Virus record (IMG/VR): IMGVR_UViG_3300047202_000009
Coordinates: 1-38,095 of that record
Direction: 5' to 3' (one strand)
Origin: a virus
DNA: 38,095 nucleotides
Each line of letters opens with the position of its first letter. The stretch's first letter is position 1. Shown piece after piece: positions 1 to 38,095 of this stretch. The notes beneath the pieces are model-generated. The model was given only the letters and a program-made list of their open reading frames with translations. It made no database searches and was not told where the DNA came from. Both the position numbers and the translations under genes were made by a program.

Positions 1-158
1 CTTTCAGTGTTGGATTTTTCAACCTATACATTTTTTTTTTTTCAACCTGCCTATCACTTTTCTCCGCACAAGAACATAATCCGGCTTTATAAAATATCCT
101 AAGAAGTCTATGCCCTTGTTGATCTGCTGAAATTTGATTTTCTTTTCGCTTAATTTTA
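1..158. repeat. Terminal redundancy, left copy
   Basis: These bases recur at 37939-38095 and are identical except that this copy has 12 T (31-42) where the other has 11. The sequence therefore closes on itself with a period of 37938. This is either an assembly of a circular or circularly permuted genome, or true terminal redundancy. The repeat lies inside the reverse transcriptase gene, so that gene is split only by the arbitrary window ends. Confidence 0.97.
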
Positions 159-963
159 AGTCCAGTTTTTCTTTTAGGAATGTGCGAATTTTTTCAATGT
201 CTTTGTAAATGTTTTTATCCCCTAAAATAATGAAATCGTCAACATATCTTACATAATATTTATGGCCCAGTGAATAAATGAATTTATCCAACTGGTCTAA
301 ATATGCATTTGCAAAGAACTGTGATGTCAGGTTTCCTATGGGTAATCCCTTGCCGTTTGAATGAAAAAGCGATTTTTCTTTTGGTATCAGTGCTTTCTTT
401 TTCAGGTCACCTTTGAAAAGATAATTGTTTGCCGGATTGTGGTAAATAATCTTTTCTGTCAGCCATAAAATATCTTTTTTCCATCCGTATGATTTTGGCG
501 CGTTCTGTATTTTTTCTTTTATGATTTCAAAAAGGATGTTTTTGTTTATCGAGCAGAAAAAGCTTTTAATGTCTAATTTCAGGTAATAACTGTCATGCGG
601 TATTTCTTTTAAGTATTGTTTTACAATCTCTACTCCTTTGTGCGTGCCTTTGCCTATGCGGTTGGCGAATGAATTCTCGATAAAATCTGCTTCAAATAAT
701 TTCTTGACTTCATTGTATAAAAGATGGTGTACTATTCTGTCCCTGAAATCTGCGGCGAATATTTCTCTTACTGTCGGGTCCTCAATTATAAAGCATATGT
801 GCCTTGAAATTCTGTATCTCCTGGATTTTAATTCTTGTAAAAGAGCAATCAGGTTTTTCTCGCGGTTATATTCAAACCGCAGTGCGTTTAATGTATTTTT
901 TTTCCTATATCGGCAATCTCTGTATGCCTGCCATAACTTCTCTAATGTGAATACTTCTTGCAT
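19..963 (-). CDS. DGR reverse transcriptase, main part
   Basis: This is the retron/group-II-like reverse transcriptase of a diversity-generating retroelement. It copies the template-repeat RNA with errors at adenines so that the cDNA replaces variable repeats. Counting from the Met at 963, the first catalytic Asp is in LKLDIKSFF (about D131). The DGR-type motif IGNLTSQ is at 209-215, where other RTs have QGxxxSP, and the YVDD box is at 240-243. The frame stays open upstream to a TTG at 1137, but that stretch only translates the template repeat, so I take the ATG at 963. The frame ends just after a poly-A run (31-42). The missing C-terminus is encoded in another frame at 37778-37969. A run of 10 or 13 A would join them into a protein of about 373 residues. 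Confidence 0.95.
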   Translation of the reverse strand: MQEVFTLEKLWQAYRDCRYRKKNTLNALRFEYNREKNLIALLQELKSRRYRISRHICFIIEDPTVREIFAADFRDRIVHHLLYNEVKKLFEADFIENSFANRIGKGTHKGVEIVKQYLKEIPHDSYYLKLDIKSFFCSINKNILFEIIKEKIQNAPKSYGWKKDILWLTEKIIYHNPANNYLFKGDLKKKALIPKEKSLFHSNGKGLPIGNLTSQFFANAYLDQLDKFIYSLGHKYYVRYVDDFIILGDKNIYKDIEKIRTFLKEKLDLKLSEKKIKFQQINKGIDFLGYFIKPDYVLVRRKVIGRLKKKKCIG

Positions 964-996: not shown

Positions 997-1098
997 CTGG
1001 CGGACTGGCCGGACATAGTTGTTGTTGTTGCGGTTGTTGTTGTTGACATTGCCATTGTTGAAGTTCACGTTCCACGCGTTGTTATCGGGATTGGCGGC
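997..1098 (-). other. DGR template repeat (TR)
   Basis: This is a 102-bp segment between avd and the reverse transcriptase, read on the minus strand. Sixteen of its 34 in-register codons are AAC or AAT. It matches VR1 (1595-1696) and VR2 (22463-22564) everywhere except almost only at template adenines. The 5' end (codons for AANPD) and the GC-rich 3' end (gtccggccagtccgcc) are unchanged in all three copies. The last variable codon is TAT here and TGT in both VRs, a candidate difference between the TR-side (IMH*) and VR-side (IMH) homing signals. Similarity to VR1 may extend six bases further, to 1104. Confidence 0.97.
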
Positions 1099-1138
1099 AT
1101 AAATGCCCTTTATGTAACCTCTGACTTCGTGCTTCAAT

Positions 1139-1203: not shown

Positions 1204-1557
1204 TCAGGGGATATATTTCTTCCAGCCCTCGGCTTGTTTTGATAAATCCACAGCCATTTCGCTCAGATATAAGTATGATGTCTGTCCACCCAGTTGCCTT
1301 AGTTCGTTGGCTATTCTTATTTCGGTAATCAACATCTCAATCGTCAAACACAAATGCTCTATCAATTCTGTGCGCCTTTCGCTATCTCTTTCACTGTTTG
1401 CTTTAATTATTAATTTTATTATGTCTATTGAATGTTCTATCAGTTTTCCTCCGAGAAAGTATTTGTATTGTTTCCCAAACTTTGGCACTCTTTGGTAAAA
1501 TTCACGCAGAATTGCGAATGCTTTGTTATAAATTGGTAGGTGTGAATACTGTGCCAT
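1204..1557 (-). CDS. avd: DGR accessory variability determinant
   Basis: A 117-residue helical protein with the look of the Avd / 23S-rRNA-intervening-sequence four-helix-bundle family: an N-terminal HLPIYNKAFAILREFY segment, a central helix with GKQYKYFLGGKL, and a C-terminal TSYLYLSEMAVDLSKQAEGW segment. Avd forms a basic pentamer that binds the DGR reverse transcriptase and template RNA and is needed for mutagenic homing. Its position between the target gene and the TR/RT pair is the canonical order avd-TR-RT. The start ATG is 31 bp past the stop of the target gene. Confidence 0.93.
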   Translation of the reverse strand: MAQYSHLPIYNKAFAILREFYQRVPKFGKQYKYFLGGKLIEHSIDIIKLIIKANSERDSERRTELIEHLCLTIEMLITEIRIANELRQLGGQTSYLYLSEMAVDLSKQAEGWKKYIP

Positions 1558-1588: not shown

Positions 1589-2317
1589 TTAATACTGGCG
1601 GACTGGCCGGACACAGTAGTTGTTGTAGCGGTAGTTGTTGTAGACAAAGCCATAGTAGAAGTTCACGTACCACGCGAGGCCATCGGGATTGGCGGCACAA
1701 ATTGTGGAACTCCAATATCCTGCTAATTGAGTGTTTGGAAAGAATGTCGTGTCTATCGCTGGATTTACTCCATCGCCTCCCAATCCGTAATCAACGATGC
1801 TCATTAATTCTTTCACGTTTGGAAGTCTCCAGTCGGCGTGCCCGAGATAATTTGCGATGTTTAATGCTTGCACCGCTAATAAAGCATTATCCCAACTCAT
1901 TCCTGCGCTAAAATCAAAACCTCCAACCGTACCCAAAACTGCGTGGTCTTTAACCCATTGTAATCCTGTTGCTTTATCATTAATTGAGTTATTTGCATTA
2001 TCGATTAAACGAGGATTAACGGGATTTCCAATACTTAAATGATAATAACCATCGTCGTAATCTGATTCAGAGACTACTTGTCCTGTTTTGGGTAAAAGAT
2101 TTTTTAGCGTCCCCGTCTTTGCTACATTCAATATTTTATATCCCACTCCGTCTACCACGTTAGCTTCTGCCGGGTCGGTATTGCGCGTCGCTTCGTCAAA
2201 TGAACCGTTTTTTGCTCCTCCGTCATATGCCACTCCCAATAAAACATTGGGTTCCGCAGGGTAATCGCAAACAACTGGCGGTGGGCATGGCGGGCATTTT
2301 CTTTTTATTTTTGGCAT
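1589..2317 (-). CDS. DGR target protein 1, C-type-lectin-like
   Basis: A 242-residue protein whose last 34 codons before the final Tyr are the variable repeat VR1. The region from about residue 115 has the DUF1566/Lcl-type C-type-lectin pattern: GLQWVKD, DWRLPNVKELMSIVDY, NPAIDTTFFP, YWSST, then the variable stretch and YCVRPVR. The N-terminus is Pro/Cys-rich (KCPPCPPPVVC). Such proteins display variable side chains on a stable fold to bind ligands. It sits right after the capsid gene and a small capsid-adjacent gene, so it may be displayed on the head or as a fibre tip. That placement is inference. Confidence 0.93.
   Translation of the reverse strand: MPKIKRKCPPCPPPVVCDYPAEPNVLLGVAYDGGAKNGSFDEATRNTDPAEANVVDGVGYKILNVAKTGTLKNLLPKTGQVVSESDYDDGYYHLSIGNPVNPRLIDNANNSINDKATGLQWVKDHAVLGTVGGFDFSAGMSWDNALLAVQALNIANYLGHADWRLPNVKELMSIVDYGLGGDGVNPAIDTTFFPNTQLAGYWSSTICAANPDGLAWYVNFYYGFVYNNYRYNNYCVRPVRQY
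1595..1696 (-). other. DGR variable repeat VR1
   Basis: This 102-bp copy of the template repeat forms the C-terminus of target 1. Aligned codon by codon it differs from the TR at 14 bases, and all 14 are template adenines (for example AAC to GGC, CTC or TAC; AAT to TTT). Adenines in the first five codons are untouched. It ends in TGT followed by the GC-rich block shared with VR2, the likely homing-initiation site. Confidence 0.96.
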
Positions 2318-10707: not shown

Positions 10708-10861
10708 TTTTATTTAATCGCATTAATGAGCAAATGACAGCATATACAATTACTGCTCTATCCTCGTGTGTCCAACGTCCCCATTTTTGACCCTTTGGAA
10801 CTCCGGCACACCTCTCGGCCATTTTCCAAATTTCTTTTTCCTCTTTTTTGGTTAACTTCAT
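10676..10861 (-). CDS. Small protein between methylases
   Basis: A 61-residue frame with a protein-like composition (KEEKEIWKMAERCAG, KWGRWTHEDRAVIVYAVIC). It overlaps the downstream methylase start by 32 bp and the 58-residue frame upstream. The Trp/His-containing amphipathic core suggests a folded protein, but no family is recognised. Confidence 0.5.
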   Translation of the reverse strand: MKLTKKEEKEIWKMAERCAGVPKGQKWGRWTHEDRAVIVYAVICSLMRLNKNGNKNTSKKN

Positions 10862-19189: not shown

Positions 19190-19768
19190 TTATTTTTTTT
19201 CTAACCTTTTAATTGTTTCGTTCGCCGCGTCGATGTATTCTTTCTTTTGCTCAGGCGTGTATCCTTTCGACTTTTCCATTTTTCCCACCGCTTCTTTCAG
19301 TTTCACTGCGTTTGTCGCTTTCTTTGCGTTCTCCACTAAGGCCTTAAATGTTTTTGTTTTCTGAGAATCTGCCATTGCTTTGTCCGCGTCAGGATCTGCT
19401 TGGTTGTCAGCGATATTAAAAGCCGACATAATCATATACCTTTTGCAGTATGTGAGTGTCGCTCCTGCGTTCTGTGCCGGTGATGCGGCGGCCACGCTTG
19501 TCAGCGGAATATCAAATTGATAAATTGCCTCTCCGCTGTTCTCTCCGGCCTCTGTGCTTTTAATCGTTAACTTCCCTTCGTACATTTCTTTGACCTTGTT
19601 GAATGGCAGGTCAAATAAAATGATTATGCTGTGCTTTTTTAAGAGGGGATTTATTGCTTGCGCGATGTCGTCTGGCTTGAAATACTTAAATCCTTTGAAT
19701 TCATTGTTGCCGTCTTTGGCAATTCTCAACTCATTGGAAATCTCCACGATTTTTTCGTAAATGTTCAT
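19190..19768 (-). CDS. erf: ERF-family single-strand annealing protein
   Basis: A 192-residue protein with ERF pattern: EFKGFKYFKPDDIAQAINPL, a central beta region, and AGATLTYCKRYMIMSAFNIA followed by acidic DPDAD. The C-terminal 60 residues are helical and Lys-rich. ERF proteins anneal complementary single strands during phage recombination and concatemer formation. The neighbouring genes (nuclease, coiled coil, SSB further up) fit that pathway. Confidence 0.85.
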   Translation of the reverse strand: MNIYEKIVEISNELRIAKDGNNEFKGFKYFKPDDIAQAINPLLKKHSIIILFDLPFNKVKEMYEGKLTIKSTEAGENSGEAIYQFDIPLTSVAAASPAQNAGATLTYCKRYMIMSAFNIADNQADPDADKAMADSQKTKTFKALVENAKKATNAVKLKEAVGKMEKSKGYTPEQKKEYIDAANETIKRLEKK

Positions 19769-20759: not shown

Positions 20760-22265
20760 TCACACTTTGTCCACACCTGCCTTTCTCGACATTCTATGCA
20801 AAAACTCGACCTGCGTGCTGGCTGATTTTATGCTGTCGTCTGATCCCTCTAAAATCTTGCTCAGCACATTTTTCTTGCTGTTTAGTATGTCGACTATGTC
20901 CTCCTCGATGGTGTCACTGCAGACGTAAAAATAAGCGTTGACCATTTTGTCCTGGCCTATTCTGTGGGCTCTATCTATCGCCTGATTGTGGATCTCCGGG
21001 CTCCAGTCCATGTCTGCGAATATCACTATTGAAGCGGCGGTCAGGTTCAATCCCACTCCTCCGGCCTTTATGTTGGCTATAAAAACCTTTGTCCCCGGGT
21101 TCTTTTGAAAGTCGTCCACCGAGGACTGCCTTTGATCCATGTCGTCGGCGCCGGTCAGGGTCCTGCATCTTATTCCTGCTTTCATTAATCCTGCGGCCAG
21201 TCCGTTTATTGTATTCGTATATTGGCTGAAAATTATCACTTTTTCGTCTTGCTCGATTGCATTCTCTACGTCTTTCATAATTCTTTCCATTTTTGCCTGT
21301 GAGCAAACCTGTTTCAGTTTTGTTATTTCTACAAGATGCCTCGCCATCATTATGTTATCGATGTTTCTTTCGGGTATCGGATTTTTCTGTAAAAAATCAA
21401 TGTATAAATCCCAGGCGGTGTCATAGTTTTTTTGCCAGACTTTGTCGAGTTCGCAATCCAATGTGCTCACTATTCTTTGTGGTAAATTCAGCACCTCCTC
21501 TTTTTTCCTGCGGATCATCGATCCTTTTATCGCTTCTCTCAACTCTCCAAGGTTTGTGGCTCCGGTTTCGTCCATGTATCTTATCACTCCTTTGGTTCTT
21601 GTCGGGATAACTTTCAGGAATGCTCCGCAGTATCTCTTTGCAAAATAGGTTCTGATGTTTCCCAGTGGATGCCCGATGGCCCGTAATAAATTATAGAGTT
21701 CTATCGGCCTGTTCAAAAGAGGTGTTCCCGTAAGGCAATAAATTCGTTTCATTTTGTGCGCTATGCCGTCGTATTTTGTCCTCGCTGGTTTTAACTCTCC
21801 GCCCATTGCGATCTGTTCTATTTCCTCGGATGTCAGTTTTTTTGTCTTTGGCTTAAACGATCCGCCAACTATGCAGGCCGCACGCAATGTTTTCCCTTTG
21901 ATGTAATGCGCCTCGTCTAAAATAAGATTTTCAACCCATCCATTTTCAATCAGGTTTTCAATCGCCTGCATTTCTCTTTGCAAAATATCGTAATTTATTA
22001 TGATCCATTTTTCCCGGTCGCTGATTCCCTCGTCGTGCCTGTTTATCACATGCACTTCGTCGTCTGGGTATACCATCTTTATTTCTCTTTGCCAGTTTAT
22101 TTTCAGCGATGCCGGGCATACAATCAACGTTCCTCCTCCGGCTGATTTTGCCGCCACTATGGCCTGCCTTGTTTTGCCCAGTCCCATCTCGTCGGCCAGG
22201 ATTGCTTTGCCTGTCCTTTCAAGGAATTCGATGCCTGTTTTTTGATGTTCGAATAGTTCTATCAT
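20760..22265 (-). CDS. SNF2-family DEAH helicase
   Basis: A 501-residue SWI2/SNF2-type ATPase: Walker A LADEMGLGKT (about 23-32), TLIVCPASLKINW, IINYDIL, LILDEAHYIKG, LTGTPLLNRPIELY, then the helicase C half with IIFSQYTNTI, KAGGVGLNLTAASIVIF and QAIDRAHRIGQ. This is a compact phage form without accessory domains. It likely remodels protein-DNA complexes or branched DNA during replication or recombination. The start overlaps the upstream small gene by four bases. Confidence 0.95.
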   Translation of the reverse strand: MIELFEHQKTGIEFLERTGKAILADEMGLGKTRQAIVAAKSAGGGTLIVCPASLKINWQREIKMVYPDDEVHVINRHDEGISDREKWIIINYDILQREMQAIENLIENGWVENLILDEAHYIKGKTLRAACIVGGSFKPKTKKLTSEEIEQIAMGGELKPARTKYDGIAHKMKRIYCLTGTPLLNRPIELYNLLRAIGHPLGNIRTYFAKRYCGAFLKVIPTRTKGVIRYMDETGATNLGELREAIKGSMIRRKKEEVLNLPQRIVSTLDCELDKVWQKNYDTAWDLYIDFLQKNPIPERNIDNIMMARHLVEITKLKQVCSQAKMERIMKDVENAIEQDEKVIIFSQYTNTINGLAAGLMKAGIRCRTLTGADDMDQRQSSVDDFQKNPGTKVFIANIKAGGVGLNLTAASIVIFADMDWSPEIHNQAIDRAHRIGQDKMVNAYFYVCSDTIEEDIVDILNSKKNVLSKILEGSDDSIKSASTQVEFLHRMSRKAGVDKV

Positions 22266-22456: not shown

Positions 22457-22876
22457 TTAATACCGGCGGACTGGCCGGACACAGTAGCTGCCGTCGCGGC
22501 CGTTGTAGCCGACATAGCCATCGTCGAAGTCCGCGAGCCACGCGAGGTCATCGGGATTGGCGGCACTTAAATCTGCTGACCAATAATATCCTTTTTCAAA
22601 TCCCTCAACTTTATCAATGTAGGCCTGTAATAATTCGACTCTTGTGGGCATTCGCCATCCCTTTCCTAGTTTTGAAATATACTCATCTATAGATTTATCG
22701 TGTTTCAAATTCACCGTCTTTTCGTGCCATTCTAATTTCTTTTCAGGAATTATTTGAATCGTGTTTTTTGTTTTTAATTTTCCGTCAGATCCACATACCT
22801 CGCATTGCACCTTTCTAACCATTGGTGCATTACAACATTCTGATAATTTTTCTTTTTTAATTTTTGTGTTTGCCAT
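22457..22876 (-). CDS. DGR target protein 2, zinc ribbon plus lectin-like
   Basis: A 139-residue protein. The N-terminus has a zinc ribbon (SECCNAPMVRKVQCEVCG). The C-terminus has a short C-type-lectin-like module (GKGWRMPTRVELLQAY, GYYWSAD) leading into variable repeat VR2 (residues 105-138) and a final Tyr. There is no signal peptide or virion-attachment region. It sits among replication genes, between a small zinc-ribbon gene and a helicase, about 21 kb from the RT. The variable face could bind intracellular partners. That would be unusual for a DGR and is inference. Confidence 0.9.
   Translation of the reverse strand: MANTKIKKEKLSECCNAPMVRKVQCEVCGSDGKLKTKNTIQIIPEKKLEWHEKTVNLKHDKSIDEYISKLGKGWRMPTRVELLQAYIDKVEGFEKGYYWSADLSAANPDDLAWLADFDDGYVGYNGRDGSYCVRPVRRY
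22463..22564 (-). other. DGR variable repeat VR2
   Basis: A 102-bp copy of the template repeat. It differs from the TR at 22 bases: 21 are template adenines, and one is T to C (GTG to GCG) in a constant position. Adenines in the AANPD codons are unchanged. The 3' GC-rich block matches TR and VR1, with TGT before it as in VR1. The last codon is CGG rather than CAG. Confidence 0.96.
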
Positions 22877-22886
22877 AAATTTTTAT

Positions 22887-23072
22887 TTATTTTTTGAATT
22901 GTTTTGCTTTAATGCAGTTTCCCCAGTGAGGAATAAACACTATTCTCATTTCCCCATCCTCGTCTATACCCCGCACTCCGGCTATTTCGCAAGGCATATT
23001 TTTCCCGGCCTTTGTTTTGATCCAACGGATTTGCTCGTGGCAACCTTTGCATTCTGATATATTATTTTCCAT
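22887..23072 (-). CDS. Small phage zinc-ribbon protein
   Basis: A 61-residue protein: SECKGCHEQIRWIKTKAGK gives CxxC, NMPCE follows, and a C-terminal FIPHWGNC supplies His and Cys for a zinc site. This compact zinc-binding layout is frequent in phage early regions. The function is unknown. It ends 10 bp before the start of DGR target 2, so the two are probably co-transcribed. Confidence 0.8.
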   Translation of the reverse strand: MENNISECKGCHEQIRWIKTKAGKNMPCEIAGVRGIDEDGEMRIVFIPHWGNCIKAKQFKK

Positions 23073-23216: not shown

Positions 23217-23636
23217 TTAAGGTTCCATTACTGGTTCCTCCTCTATTACTGGTATTTCGTTTGTGTCGGCCTTTTTAATGTCCACGGGTCCTTGCCCGGC
23301 TCCTGCTCCGGCTGGCTTCTGCCCGAATTGAAAGGACTCGACTATAATCTTTGTCGAGTATTTTTTGACACCGTCCTTTTCCCAGGTGTCTGTTTTAATT
23401 CTGCCCTCCACTAAAATCTCCTGGCCTTTGACTACGTAGGTTGCTATCGTTTCGGCCGTTTTGCCGAATGCTGTGCAATTATGGAAGTCCGTTTCCTCTT
23501 GCTTTTGGCCGTCCTTATCTTTCCACACTCTGTTTGTTGCCAGTGAGAATGAAGTCACTGACGATCCCGATGGCATTGATCTCTGCTCGGGCGCTCTTGT
23601 CACTCTACCAACTATAAATACTTTATTTAAGTTCAT
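23217..23636 (-). CDS. ssb: Single-stranded DNA-binding protein
   Basis: A 139-residue OB-fold SSB: MNLNKVFIVGRVTRAPEQRS, SFSLATNRVWKDK, DFHNCTAFGKTAETIATYV, EILVEGRIKTDTW and STKIIVESFQFG. The C-terminus is an acidic disordered tail ending EEEPVMEP rather than the usual DIPF-type tip. It coats single-stranded DNA for replication and for the ERF/exonuclease pathway. Confidence 0.95.
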   Translation of the reverse strand: MNLNKVFIVGRVTRAPEQRSMPSGSSVTSFSLATNRVWKDKDGQKQEETDFHNCTAFGKTAETIATYVVKGQEILVEGRIKTDTWEKDGVKKYSTKIIVESFQFGQKPAGAGAGQGPVDIKKADTNEIPVIEEEPVMEP

Positions 23637-34467: not shown

Positions 34468-36141
34468 TTATAATTTTTTATATGGACTATTTTTTTTCGG
34501 ATAAGGGTTTATTGCCTGATCCGAATATGGGTTAATTTTATTTGCGTATGGACTGCTCTGTTTTGAGTAAGGATTTATTGTTTGTTTTTTATAAGGATAA
34601 ATTCTTATCACATATTTTACTAATTTTGTTATTGTTACCGGATTTTCTATATTGTATTTTAATGATTTAATTATTTTTTCATTTGTTGTTACTTTATAAT
34701 TAATGCCTTTTGTGATTGCGACCGGCGTTACCGTTACTTCGTATTTTAAGGATTTTGTTATGGCGAGGGGCGAACTTATCACTAAATATTTTAATGGTTT
34801 GGTAATAGGTTTTGATTTTATTATTCCATATCTTAAAGATTTTGTGATCGGACTTTGTTGTATTGTAGTCGTGTATTTTAACGATTTGGTTAGTGATCGG
34901 ATGGATATTGTGTTTATAATATATTCCAATCCCTTTGTTTTTGTGGTTATTGTTGCCCTAACTTTATACTCCAATCCCTTAGTTACCCCTCCTATTGTCG
35001 CTATTTCGTATATTAACCCCTTGGAGGTCTGTTTTGCTTGTCTAGTGGCGTATTGGAGTCCCTTTGTGGTAGCGGATGGCGTCCCTCTAACCTTGTATAT
35101 CAATCCTTTCGTCTTTGCCGATGGAATTGTCGTCACTAAATATCTTGTCGATTTAGTGATTGCTGTTGGTGTTTGTTTTATTGTATATTTTAGTGATTTT
35201 GTCGGCGCCCCCAAAGTTTTTATTGAATAAATCAGTTGCTTTGTCAATGCGGATGGTATTGCCCTTATTTTATATATCAGTCCTTTTGTTTTCGCTGATG
35301 GTATAGTAATTATTCTATAAATCAATCCCTTAGTTTTTCCGGCCGGAGTTATCGTCACGGTATATTTTAGTGATTTTGTTAATGCCGATGGTGCATATTT
35401 TATATCATAAATTAATCCTTTGGTAATTGCTGTGATTGTTTTTTTAACATCGTAAATCAAACCTTTTGTAATTGCGGTTTGAGTTTTTCTTATATCGTAG
35501 ATTAATCCTTTCGTCTTGGCACTCGGAGTTGACGGTACACAATATTTTAATGACTTTGTTGGCGCACTCGGCGGTGTTTTTATTTTATATATCAAACCTT
35601 TCGTTATTGCGGTTGGTATAGTTTTTACCGCATATCCTAATGATTTTGTTATTCCGGTTGATGTAATTATATCGTAATAAACTTTCACGCGTATGCTGTC
35701 TATGTAAATCACATCCGATCCGTTTCCAACATACGCCACTCCCTCTAATATAAAGTTAACGTCCGTAAAGTCGTCTTTGACCCACGCCTTTCCCCACATA
35801 TCTGTCGGTCCTCCAAAAGTCACTACTCCGTTAGAAGTTGGGAGAGCTAAAGAATATTGAGTACATGTCCCTCCTCCTACTCCGGCCATTGATATTCTCA
35901 ATGCGTTCCCAGAGTATGCGCAGTATCCCTTTCCCTCGACTTCTATTCCACGGATCACGGCCCCGGTCGGAAGTCCGAATGCAAAGTTTATGTACCATGC
36001 GTTAGAATAATATGGATGGCCTGGAACGTCGTTATAGGTATGGGTTGCATATACCCCGTCAACGGCATAGACATTCGTCGGGTTAATTAGTTCATTGTAT
36101 GCCCCGAGACCTGTTGGTAATTTGTATCCTGTATCTGCCAT
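34468..36141 (-). CDS. Repeat-shaft fibre-like protein
   Basis: A 557-residue protein with three parts. Residues 1-160 are a globular beta domain (PYYSNAWYINFAFGLPTG, VIRGIEVEGKGYC, VIYIDSIRVKVYYD). Residues 165-514 hold about 24 repeats of 15 residues built on TK(G/S)L(I/K)Yx(I/V) followed by a PSA-type turn. The last 43 have INPYxK/SPY repeats. The repeat length and alternating hydrophobics suggest a beta-fibrous shaft. It is probably a virion fibre, though the head-tail position is not proven. Confidence 0.8.
   Translation of the reverse strand: MADTGYKLPTGLGAYNELINPTNVYAVDGVYATHTYNDVPGHPYYSNAWYINFAFGLPTGAVIRGIEVEGKGYCAYSGNALRISMAGVGGGTCTQYSLALPTSNGVVTFGGPTDMWGKAWVKDDFTDVNFILEGVAYVGNGSDVIYIDSIRVKVYYDIITSTGITKSLGYAVKTIPTAITKGLIYKIKTPPSAPTKSLKYCVPSTPSAKTKGLIYDIRKTQTAITKGLIYDVKKTITAITKGLIYDIKYAPSALTKSLKYTVTITPAGKTKGLIYRIITIPSAKTKGLIYKIRAIPSALTKQLIYSIKTLGAPTKSLKYTIKQTPTAITKSTRYLVTTIPSAKTKGLIYKVRGTPSATTKGLQYATRQAKQTSKGLIYEIATIGGVTKGLEYKVRATITTKTKGLEYIINTISIRSLTKSLKYTTTIQQSPITKSLRYGIIKSKPITKPLKYLVISSPLAITKSLKYEVTVTPVAITKGINYKVTTNEKIIKSLKYNIENPVTITKLVKYVIRIYPYKKQTINPYSKQSSPYANKINPYSDQAINPYPKKNSPYKKL
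34600..35649 (-). repeat. 24 tandem 45-bp-class coding repeats
   Basis: Degenerate tandem repeats of about 45 bp encode the TKGLIY/TKSLKY units of the fibre-like protein. DNA identity between units is low to moderate while the protein core is kept, so the array is old and under selection. A minor block of INPY/SPY repeats (about 34471-34599) follows. Confidence 0.9.
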
Positions 36142-37777: not shown

Positions 37778-37969
37778 TTACTGCCTTATTTTATTTCGTG
37801 CAGTAATTTTTATTGATTTATATTGTTTTTTTGCCGTAAAATTATCTCTAAAATACTTCTCGTAAATTTTCTTTCTTAATTTGTATGCGTTTGCGTGAAT
37901 AAAGTGTCCGAAATATGAATTTGCCGTGGCTAACAATTCTTTCAGTGTTGGATTTTTCAACCTATACAT
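37778..37969 (-). CDS. DGR reverse transcriptase, C-terminal part (frame-shifted)
   Basis: A 63-residue frame starting MYRLKNPTLKEL and containing NSYFGHFIHANAYKLRKKIY, the C-terminal signature found in DGR reverse transcriptases after the thumb. It directly continues the RT at 19-963 across the window ends, but in another frame because of the poly-A run. With 10 or 13 A the join reads RLKKK(K)MYRLK. It is best treated as part of one RT gene and not as an independent protein. Confidence 0.88.
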   Translation of the reverse strand: MYRLKNPTLKELLATANSYFGHFIHANAYKLRKKIYEKYFRDNFTAKKQYKSIKITARNKIRQ

Positions 37970-38095
37970 TTTTTTTTTTCAACCTGCCTATCACTTTTCT
38001 CCGCACAAGAACATAATCCGGCTTTATAAAATATCCTAAGAAGTCTATGCCCTTGTTGATCTGCTGAAATTTGATTTTCTTTTCGCTTAATTTTA
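37939..38095. repeat. Terminal redundancy, right copy
   Basis: Repeats 1-158 with one T fewer in the homopolymer (11 T from 37969). In this copy the RT would end RLKKKNV before a stop. The difference is the only one seen between the two copies. Confidence 0.97.

Follow-up and report, generated by a model that had tools for sequence, protein, structure and literature searches.

The window, that is, the whole stretch of 38,095 nt analysed here, is the single IMG/VR record IMGVR_UViG_3300047202_000009, and its terminal repeats of ~157 bp indicate that the genome is probably circular. It encodes a DGR, a type of system in which error-prone cDNA templated by the RNA of a template repeat (TR) homes at a 3′ block. 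Three copies of the repeat, giving a 108-nt match, are present in the 38-kb window, all on the minus strand, and no fourth copy was found there. Besides the TR and the first variable repeat (VR1), which lies in a target gene adjoining the DGR, a second variable repeat (VR2) is located far from the reverse transcriptase (RT), outside the structural module and within the replication region, at a distance of ~16.6 kb from the TR by the short way round the circle. The gene that carries VR2 will be named hereafter the remote target, and the coordinates of all features are collected in Table 1. An Rfam search of the window returned no match.

Table 1. Features of the DGR, its two targets and the neighbourhood of the remote target in the window
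Feature	Position	Strand	Basis or remark
DGR reverse transcriptase (RT)	19-960	-	YVDD and IGNLTSQ motifs intact; phrog_1423 (E 4e-87)
TR (template repeat)	997-1104	-	repeat search and alignment; just upstream of the RT
Avd	1204-1557	-	phrog_3206 (E 5e-14); NF033474 (E 6e-8)
Adjacent target gene with VR1, beside the major head protein gene	1589-2317	-	Lcl_C-type CLec
VR1	1595-1702	-	repeat in the target gene adjoining the DGR
Erf-like ssDNA annealing protein	19190-19768	-	phrog_155 (E 1e-25)
SNF2-family helicase, downstream neighbour of the remote target	20760-22265	-	PF00176 (E 3e-28)
Remote target gene, 139 aa: ribbon-like N-terminus and Lcl_C C-terminus with VR2	22457-22876	-	
VR2, remote variable repeat	22463-22570	-	108-nt match; 102-bp frame 22463-22564
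VR2 3′ homing block GTCCGGCCAGTCCGCC, GC-rich, IMH-like	22465-22480	-	repeat alignment
Lcl_C (PF07603), C-type-lectin type	22466-22681	-	E 2.4e-9
CC-x9-CxxC ribbon (SECCNAPMVRKVQCEVCGSDGK)	22778-22843	-	four Cys invariant in the three-phage alignment
61-aa ORF with CxxC and HWGNC, between SSB and the remote target	22887-23072	-	
SSB, upstream neighbour of the remote target	23217-23636	-	PF00436 (E 7e-37)

Over the 101-bp core, VR2 differs from the TR at 21 positions, 20 of which are TR adenines (hypergeometric p = 8e-11), the sole non-adenine mismatch being a T to C change; over the full 108 nt there are 26 mismatches, 23 of them at adenines. In the case of VR1, every one of the mismatches (15/15) falls on a TR adenine. 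The homing block GTCCGGCCAGTCCGCC is identical across TR, VR1 and VR2, as well as in the related loci L004, L170, L171 and L172 described below. VR2 ends with the ORF of the remote target, so that it occupies the 3′ end of the gene, inside the C-type-lectin-type (CLec) domain. Moreover, randomization of the TR adenines cannot generate a stop codon in the reading frame used by VR1 and VR2, whereas it can in the other two frames. A chance repeat is ruled out by the adenine bias, the reading frame and the conservation, and VR2 is a genuine second DGR variable repeat.

The protein encoded by the remote target combines a short N-terminal region, the ribbon, with a C-terminal Lcl_C domain at aa 66-137, which aligns to positions 30-117 of the 117-position profile and is thus shortened on its N-side. 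Cysteines C14, C15, C25 and C28 are invariant in the three ribbon sequences that could be aligned, and a Pfam search with aa 1-61 returned no match. Pfam and PHROG profile searches with the whole protein retrieved CLec-type families only, with no match to a virion-related family, and PADLOC returned no match for it. A hydrophobic segment is likewise absent from the 139-aa protein, in which the highest 19-residue hydropathy is 0.26, as compared with 2.5-2.6 for two membrane/signal-like proteins of the window that served as controls. AlphaFold models of the window protein and of its L171 homologue were poor (pLDDT 44 and 56, respectively), with values mostly below 50 at the ribbon, and the best Foldseek match of the weak homologue model, the Legionella Lcl C-terminal domain, was not significant (E 0.34).

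Downstream of the remote target, the SNF2 helicase and Erf-like genes are accompanied by a gene for an HTH protein. The 61-aa ORF on the SSB side had no match in Pfam, and a small ORF that resembles it by eye follows the L171 target. Methyltransferases are encoded ~10 kb from the remote target. The PADLOC matches of the SNF2 helicase correspond to generic helicase domains, and a defence assignment for this protein was set aside on that ground. Elsewhere in the window, near the head-tail adaptor gene, a 557-aa protein (34468-36141) carries ~45-nt (15-aa) repeats of the TKGLIYxI type and has no PHROG match. At the gene starts that were inspected there is no clear Shine-Dalgarno motif, the leaders being A-rich as in Bacteroidota-type hosts.

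Much of this arrangement had been proposed in a first-pass annotation of the same DNA. That annotation placed VR2 in the 102-bp frame of the TR, with the same homing block and with 21 of 22 changes at template adenines, and these counts are confirmed. The ribbon-like, Cys-rich N-terminus and CLec-type C-terminus that it described are borne out by the four invariant cysteines and the PF07603 match. In agreement with its further statements, the gene appears to be devoid of virion or export signals, as far as profile searches and hydropathy can tell, and it does lie amid replication and recombination genes, between those for SSB and the SNF2 helicase, with the Erf-like gene beyond.

Relatives of the ribbon protein were sought by means of DNA patterns; alignment-driven scans missed even known members. 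When the homing block TNTGTCCGGCCAGTCCGCC was used as a scan pattern across IMG/VR, it retrieved the known RT relative L004, whose RT is the closest to that of the window (77% identity), and two more contigs, L171 and L170/L172. Each of the latter has a gene that encodes this N-terminal ribbon together with a VR-bearing Lcl_C domain and that ends with the homing block, as had been suggested to be worth searching for at first pass. An independent scan of all IMG/VR with the ribbon motif only recovered exactly the same two contigs, which means that each ribbon of this type that was found bears a DGR repeat. In a BLASTP comparison, aa 1-61 of the remote target matched the L171 protein (E 1e-15), 24 of the first 40 aa being identical. 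The ribbon pattern had no match in bacterial genome contigs, no relatives of the remote target were detected in INPHARED by whole-protein and N-terminal searches, and IMG/VR gave no match when it was scanned with the VR2 protein or the SNF2 helicase as single queries, nor when a 5′ TR pattern was used. The known members of the family are three only, none of them in a cultured phage.

L171 and the L004 record are 99.7% identical over a 5.3-kb overlap and 100% identical over further kilobases, indicating that both are pieces of one phage population. The ribbon target of this phage is located ~15 kb from its TR and directly follows the gene for a Sak4-like annealing ATPase (phrog_124, AAA_24). 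In L170, the target shares its strand with a RecT gene ~2.3 kb downstream, and there are HNH-like genes close by on either side; like the window, L170/L172 also has a target of the adjacent (VR1) type. The L171/L173 contig ends inside VR1 (G052 19851), as expected where a repeat or hypervariable site breaks the assembly. As judged from these sequences, the ribbon-CLec architecture is conserved in related phages.

The TRs of the window and of L004 differ at six non-adenine positions (TTGCGT versus CCCTCC), and in each of the two phages both VR1 and VR2 match their own phage's TR at all six of these diagnostic sites. In its core, the L171 VR2 differs from the L004 TR at 19 A sites and at one non-A site. 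Between L171 and L170, pS is 0.66 for the ribbon and 0.74 for the scaffold but 0.11 for the VR, whereas non-synonymous divergence amounts to 0.21, 0.20 and 0.26, respectively. The ribbon and the scaffold are thus under purifying selection, and the VR is being homogenized from the template and scrambled at the adenine sites, as retrohoming predicts. The possibility that VR2 is an accidental passenger copy is ruled out, since two lineages keep the fusion and homogenize VR2 with their own TR. Adenine bias, match to the own TR and conserved architecture all agree with the original designation of this gene as a second, remote DGR target.

In all three ribbon phages, the DGR core is damaged or frame-disrupted. 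The RT domain of the window is open, but in both terminal copies the reading frame is lost after a T11/T12 run, which leaves the last ~63 aa of the protein out of frame, a disruption that had escaped the first-pass annotation; this out-of-frame tail (63 aa) is 62% identical to the tail of the relative. The run is the only homopolymer of 10 nt or longer in the genome (T12 at 31-42, T11 at 37969-37979). In L004 the RT frame is broken at 10780-10860, with ~11 aa missing relative to the window, and in L172 (6241-6600) the core is deleted. That is, Avd stops after ~40 aa and the TR and RT are gone, an HNH-like fragment having taken their place, while both VR genes of L172 are still open. Such damage would be consistent with VR2 being a relic, i.e. 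a past target whose RT is now defective and whose protein has been left with a frozen, already selected specificity. Several observations stand against this explanation, which we consider not very likely. The VR2 core of the window shows one non-adenine difference from the TR and VR1 shows none, which means that homing was recent. Furthermore, the length of the T-run differs between the terminal copies, and the frame disruption could possibly reflect an assembly error, a phase-variable RT or slippage. Finally, the RT of Quimbyvirus, which is encoded in overlapping frames, was judged to be active (PMC8008677). Homing in the window was thus recent, but the DGR may since have become inactive.

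Annotated phage DGR targets are mostly tail proteins, as is the case for viral DGR clades 1, 4 and 6 in the survey of Roux et al. 2021 (PMC8144416), and phages that have two targets of virion type have been described (PMC10743442). The remote CLec domain is, moreover, of the same Lcl_C type as that of the VR1 protein. It could therefore be argued that the ribbon-CLec protein belongs to the virion, as a minor component or as another receptor binder whose gene happens to lie apart from those of the tail, the DGR tuning adsorption at two sites. However, its N-terminus has no match to a virion-related family, and the gene lies amid those for SSB, SNF2 and Erf in the window, while in L171 it directly follows the Sak4-like gene and in L170 it has RecT nearby, so that a place in the virion seems improbable to us.

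The location of targets in other DGR phages was surveyed starting from 80 RT-related loci, and TRs with masked adenines were used to search 38 virus records piece by piece. A TR-VR pair was obtained in 36 of the 38 scanned records, commonly with two adjacent targets. Eight records, corresponding to seven phage types, have a VR at a distance of more than 2.5 kb, and in six of these seven types the remote target has a CI-type repressor, Erf or RecE/RecT in its vicinity, the seventh type being unassigned. In several of the six types the whole DGR sits in the repressor/recombinase region, so the remoteness is modest there. An enrichment of remote targets near repressor/recombinase genes is at most suggestive, the numbers being small.

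The clearest parallel to the dual-target layout of the window is provided by L064/L151 (IMG/VR 3300024305_000003). As in the window, one DGR with its first target is located beside virion genes and a CLec target is remote, lying in this case in an operon between RecE/RecT and a nucleoid-associated protein (L151 6512-7093). The second target of L064/L151 differs from that of the window in that it is on the opposite strand, 27.8 kb off, has no ribbon and belongs to the phrog_4245 CLec family. In the cultured Pseudomonas phage Cruim01, which is of temperate type, a complete two-target DGR (L175, 10041-15076) follows SSB and precedes the integrase gene. Pseudomonas phage PMG1 encodes near cI a small CLec-like protein (L174 3854-4342) related to the remote target of L151; no DGR was seen in the PMG1 stretch shown (L174).

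Phages often keep lysogen-expressed genes in the cI region. The remote CLec targets near CI-type repressors in unrelated DGR phages, and the small CLec-like gene that PMG1/D3 carry near cI, could thus point to a role in the prophage state or in superinfection, in which the variable early protein would bind components of competing phages or alter the lysogen instead of serving the phage's own infection. In the window, however, the searches that were run identified no integrase or repressor, and the neighbours of the remote target are replication and recombination genes. We regard such a role as unlikely.

Compared with Bordetella phage BPP-1 and its Mtd protein, the window has the same RT, Avd and TR, a 3′-terminal VR in a CLec-type domain and adenine-specific change, but BPP-1 has one adjacent tail-fibre target, whereas here there is an extra, remote target without virion features. 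A closer layout is that of Quimbyvirus, in which one target is in the structural module and the other is a remote, apparently non-structural gene on the opposite strand, in a defence-related island (Benler et al. 2021, PMC8008677). Both phages have one DGR with two CLec targets, one structural-side and one remote, and a disrupted RT frame. They differ in that the Quimbyvirus island contains methyltransferases, a nuclease and an RNA ligase, whereas the remote target of the window lies in the SSB/Erf/SNF2 region, on the strand of the DGR itself, and is fused to a Cys-ribbon.

Outside phages, cyanobacterial DGRs have remote, mostly cytosolic targets and, like the window, remote VRs at the 3′ ends of CLec genes with varied N-terminal domains (PMC7517822); these are, however, cellular genomes with N-terminal domains of signalling type, as opposed to a phage with a small ribbon. 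In Thiohalocapsa PB-PSB1, cytoplasmic DGR-diversified CLec proteins have been proposed to be variable intracellular sensors (PMC10907252), but they belong to bacterial defence with NACHT or ternary partners, and no such partner is present in the window. The position and orientation of a target relative to replication have been reported to affect homing (PMC12875486). In view of the dual layout already reported for Quimbyvirus (PMC8008677) and of the known cytosolic targets (PMC7517822, PMC10907252), the first-pass statement that this locus was the best candidate for a new system was too strong. Remote non-structural phage targets are already known, and what is new here is a ribbon-fused, conserved remote target in a recombination region.

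We propose that one DGR diversifies two proteins of the phage. The RT, together with Avd, would reverse-transcribe the TR RNA and mutate adenines, and the cDNA would home via the shared 3′ GC-rich block into VR1, in the gene beside the head genes, and likewise into VR2, in the CLec-type C-terminus of the small ribbon protein whose gene lies in the SSB/Erf/SNF2 region. The ribbon would serve as the anchor, which stays constant, whereas the lectin face would vary and bind an intracellular ligand that itself changes. Candidates for this ligand would be, as a guess, factors of host defence or replication, or competing phages. Sequence comparison establishes VR2 as a target of the DGR, with a fixed ribbon-CLec architecture, and we think it reasonably probable that the remote ribbon-CLec protein is an intracellular variable binder, early, cytoplasmic and non-virion. 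The intracellular site of action is suggested by the position of the gene, the absence of export or virion features and the recurrence of remote targets near repressor/recombinase genes elsewhere. Of the earlier idea of a diversified cytoplasmic binder, the part that stands is that the target is remote, conserved and without an export feature; its proposed defence or replication ligand is conjectural, PADLOC having returned nothing.

More tentatively, it may be that in many phages one DGR maintains two repertoires, a virion receptor binder and an intracellular binder kept with the recombination/replication genes, the latter acting much like an antibody directed at the changing defences of the host or at rival phages. 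The ribbon-CLec targets, the RecE/RecT-associated targets and the repressor-associated targets would then be independent instances of such an arrangement. The role usually assigned to phage DGRs is that of tropism switches, and intracellular phage targets are probably under-counted, since remote targets were invisible to the large metagenome survey of Roux et al. 2021 (PMC8144416). A ribbon-CLec family homogenized with the TR, together with the recurrence of such targets near SSB, RecT, Sak4, Erf and CI, would make the existence of intracellular binders produced by targeted hypermutation directly testable.
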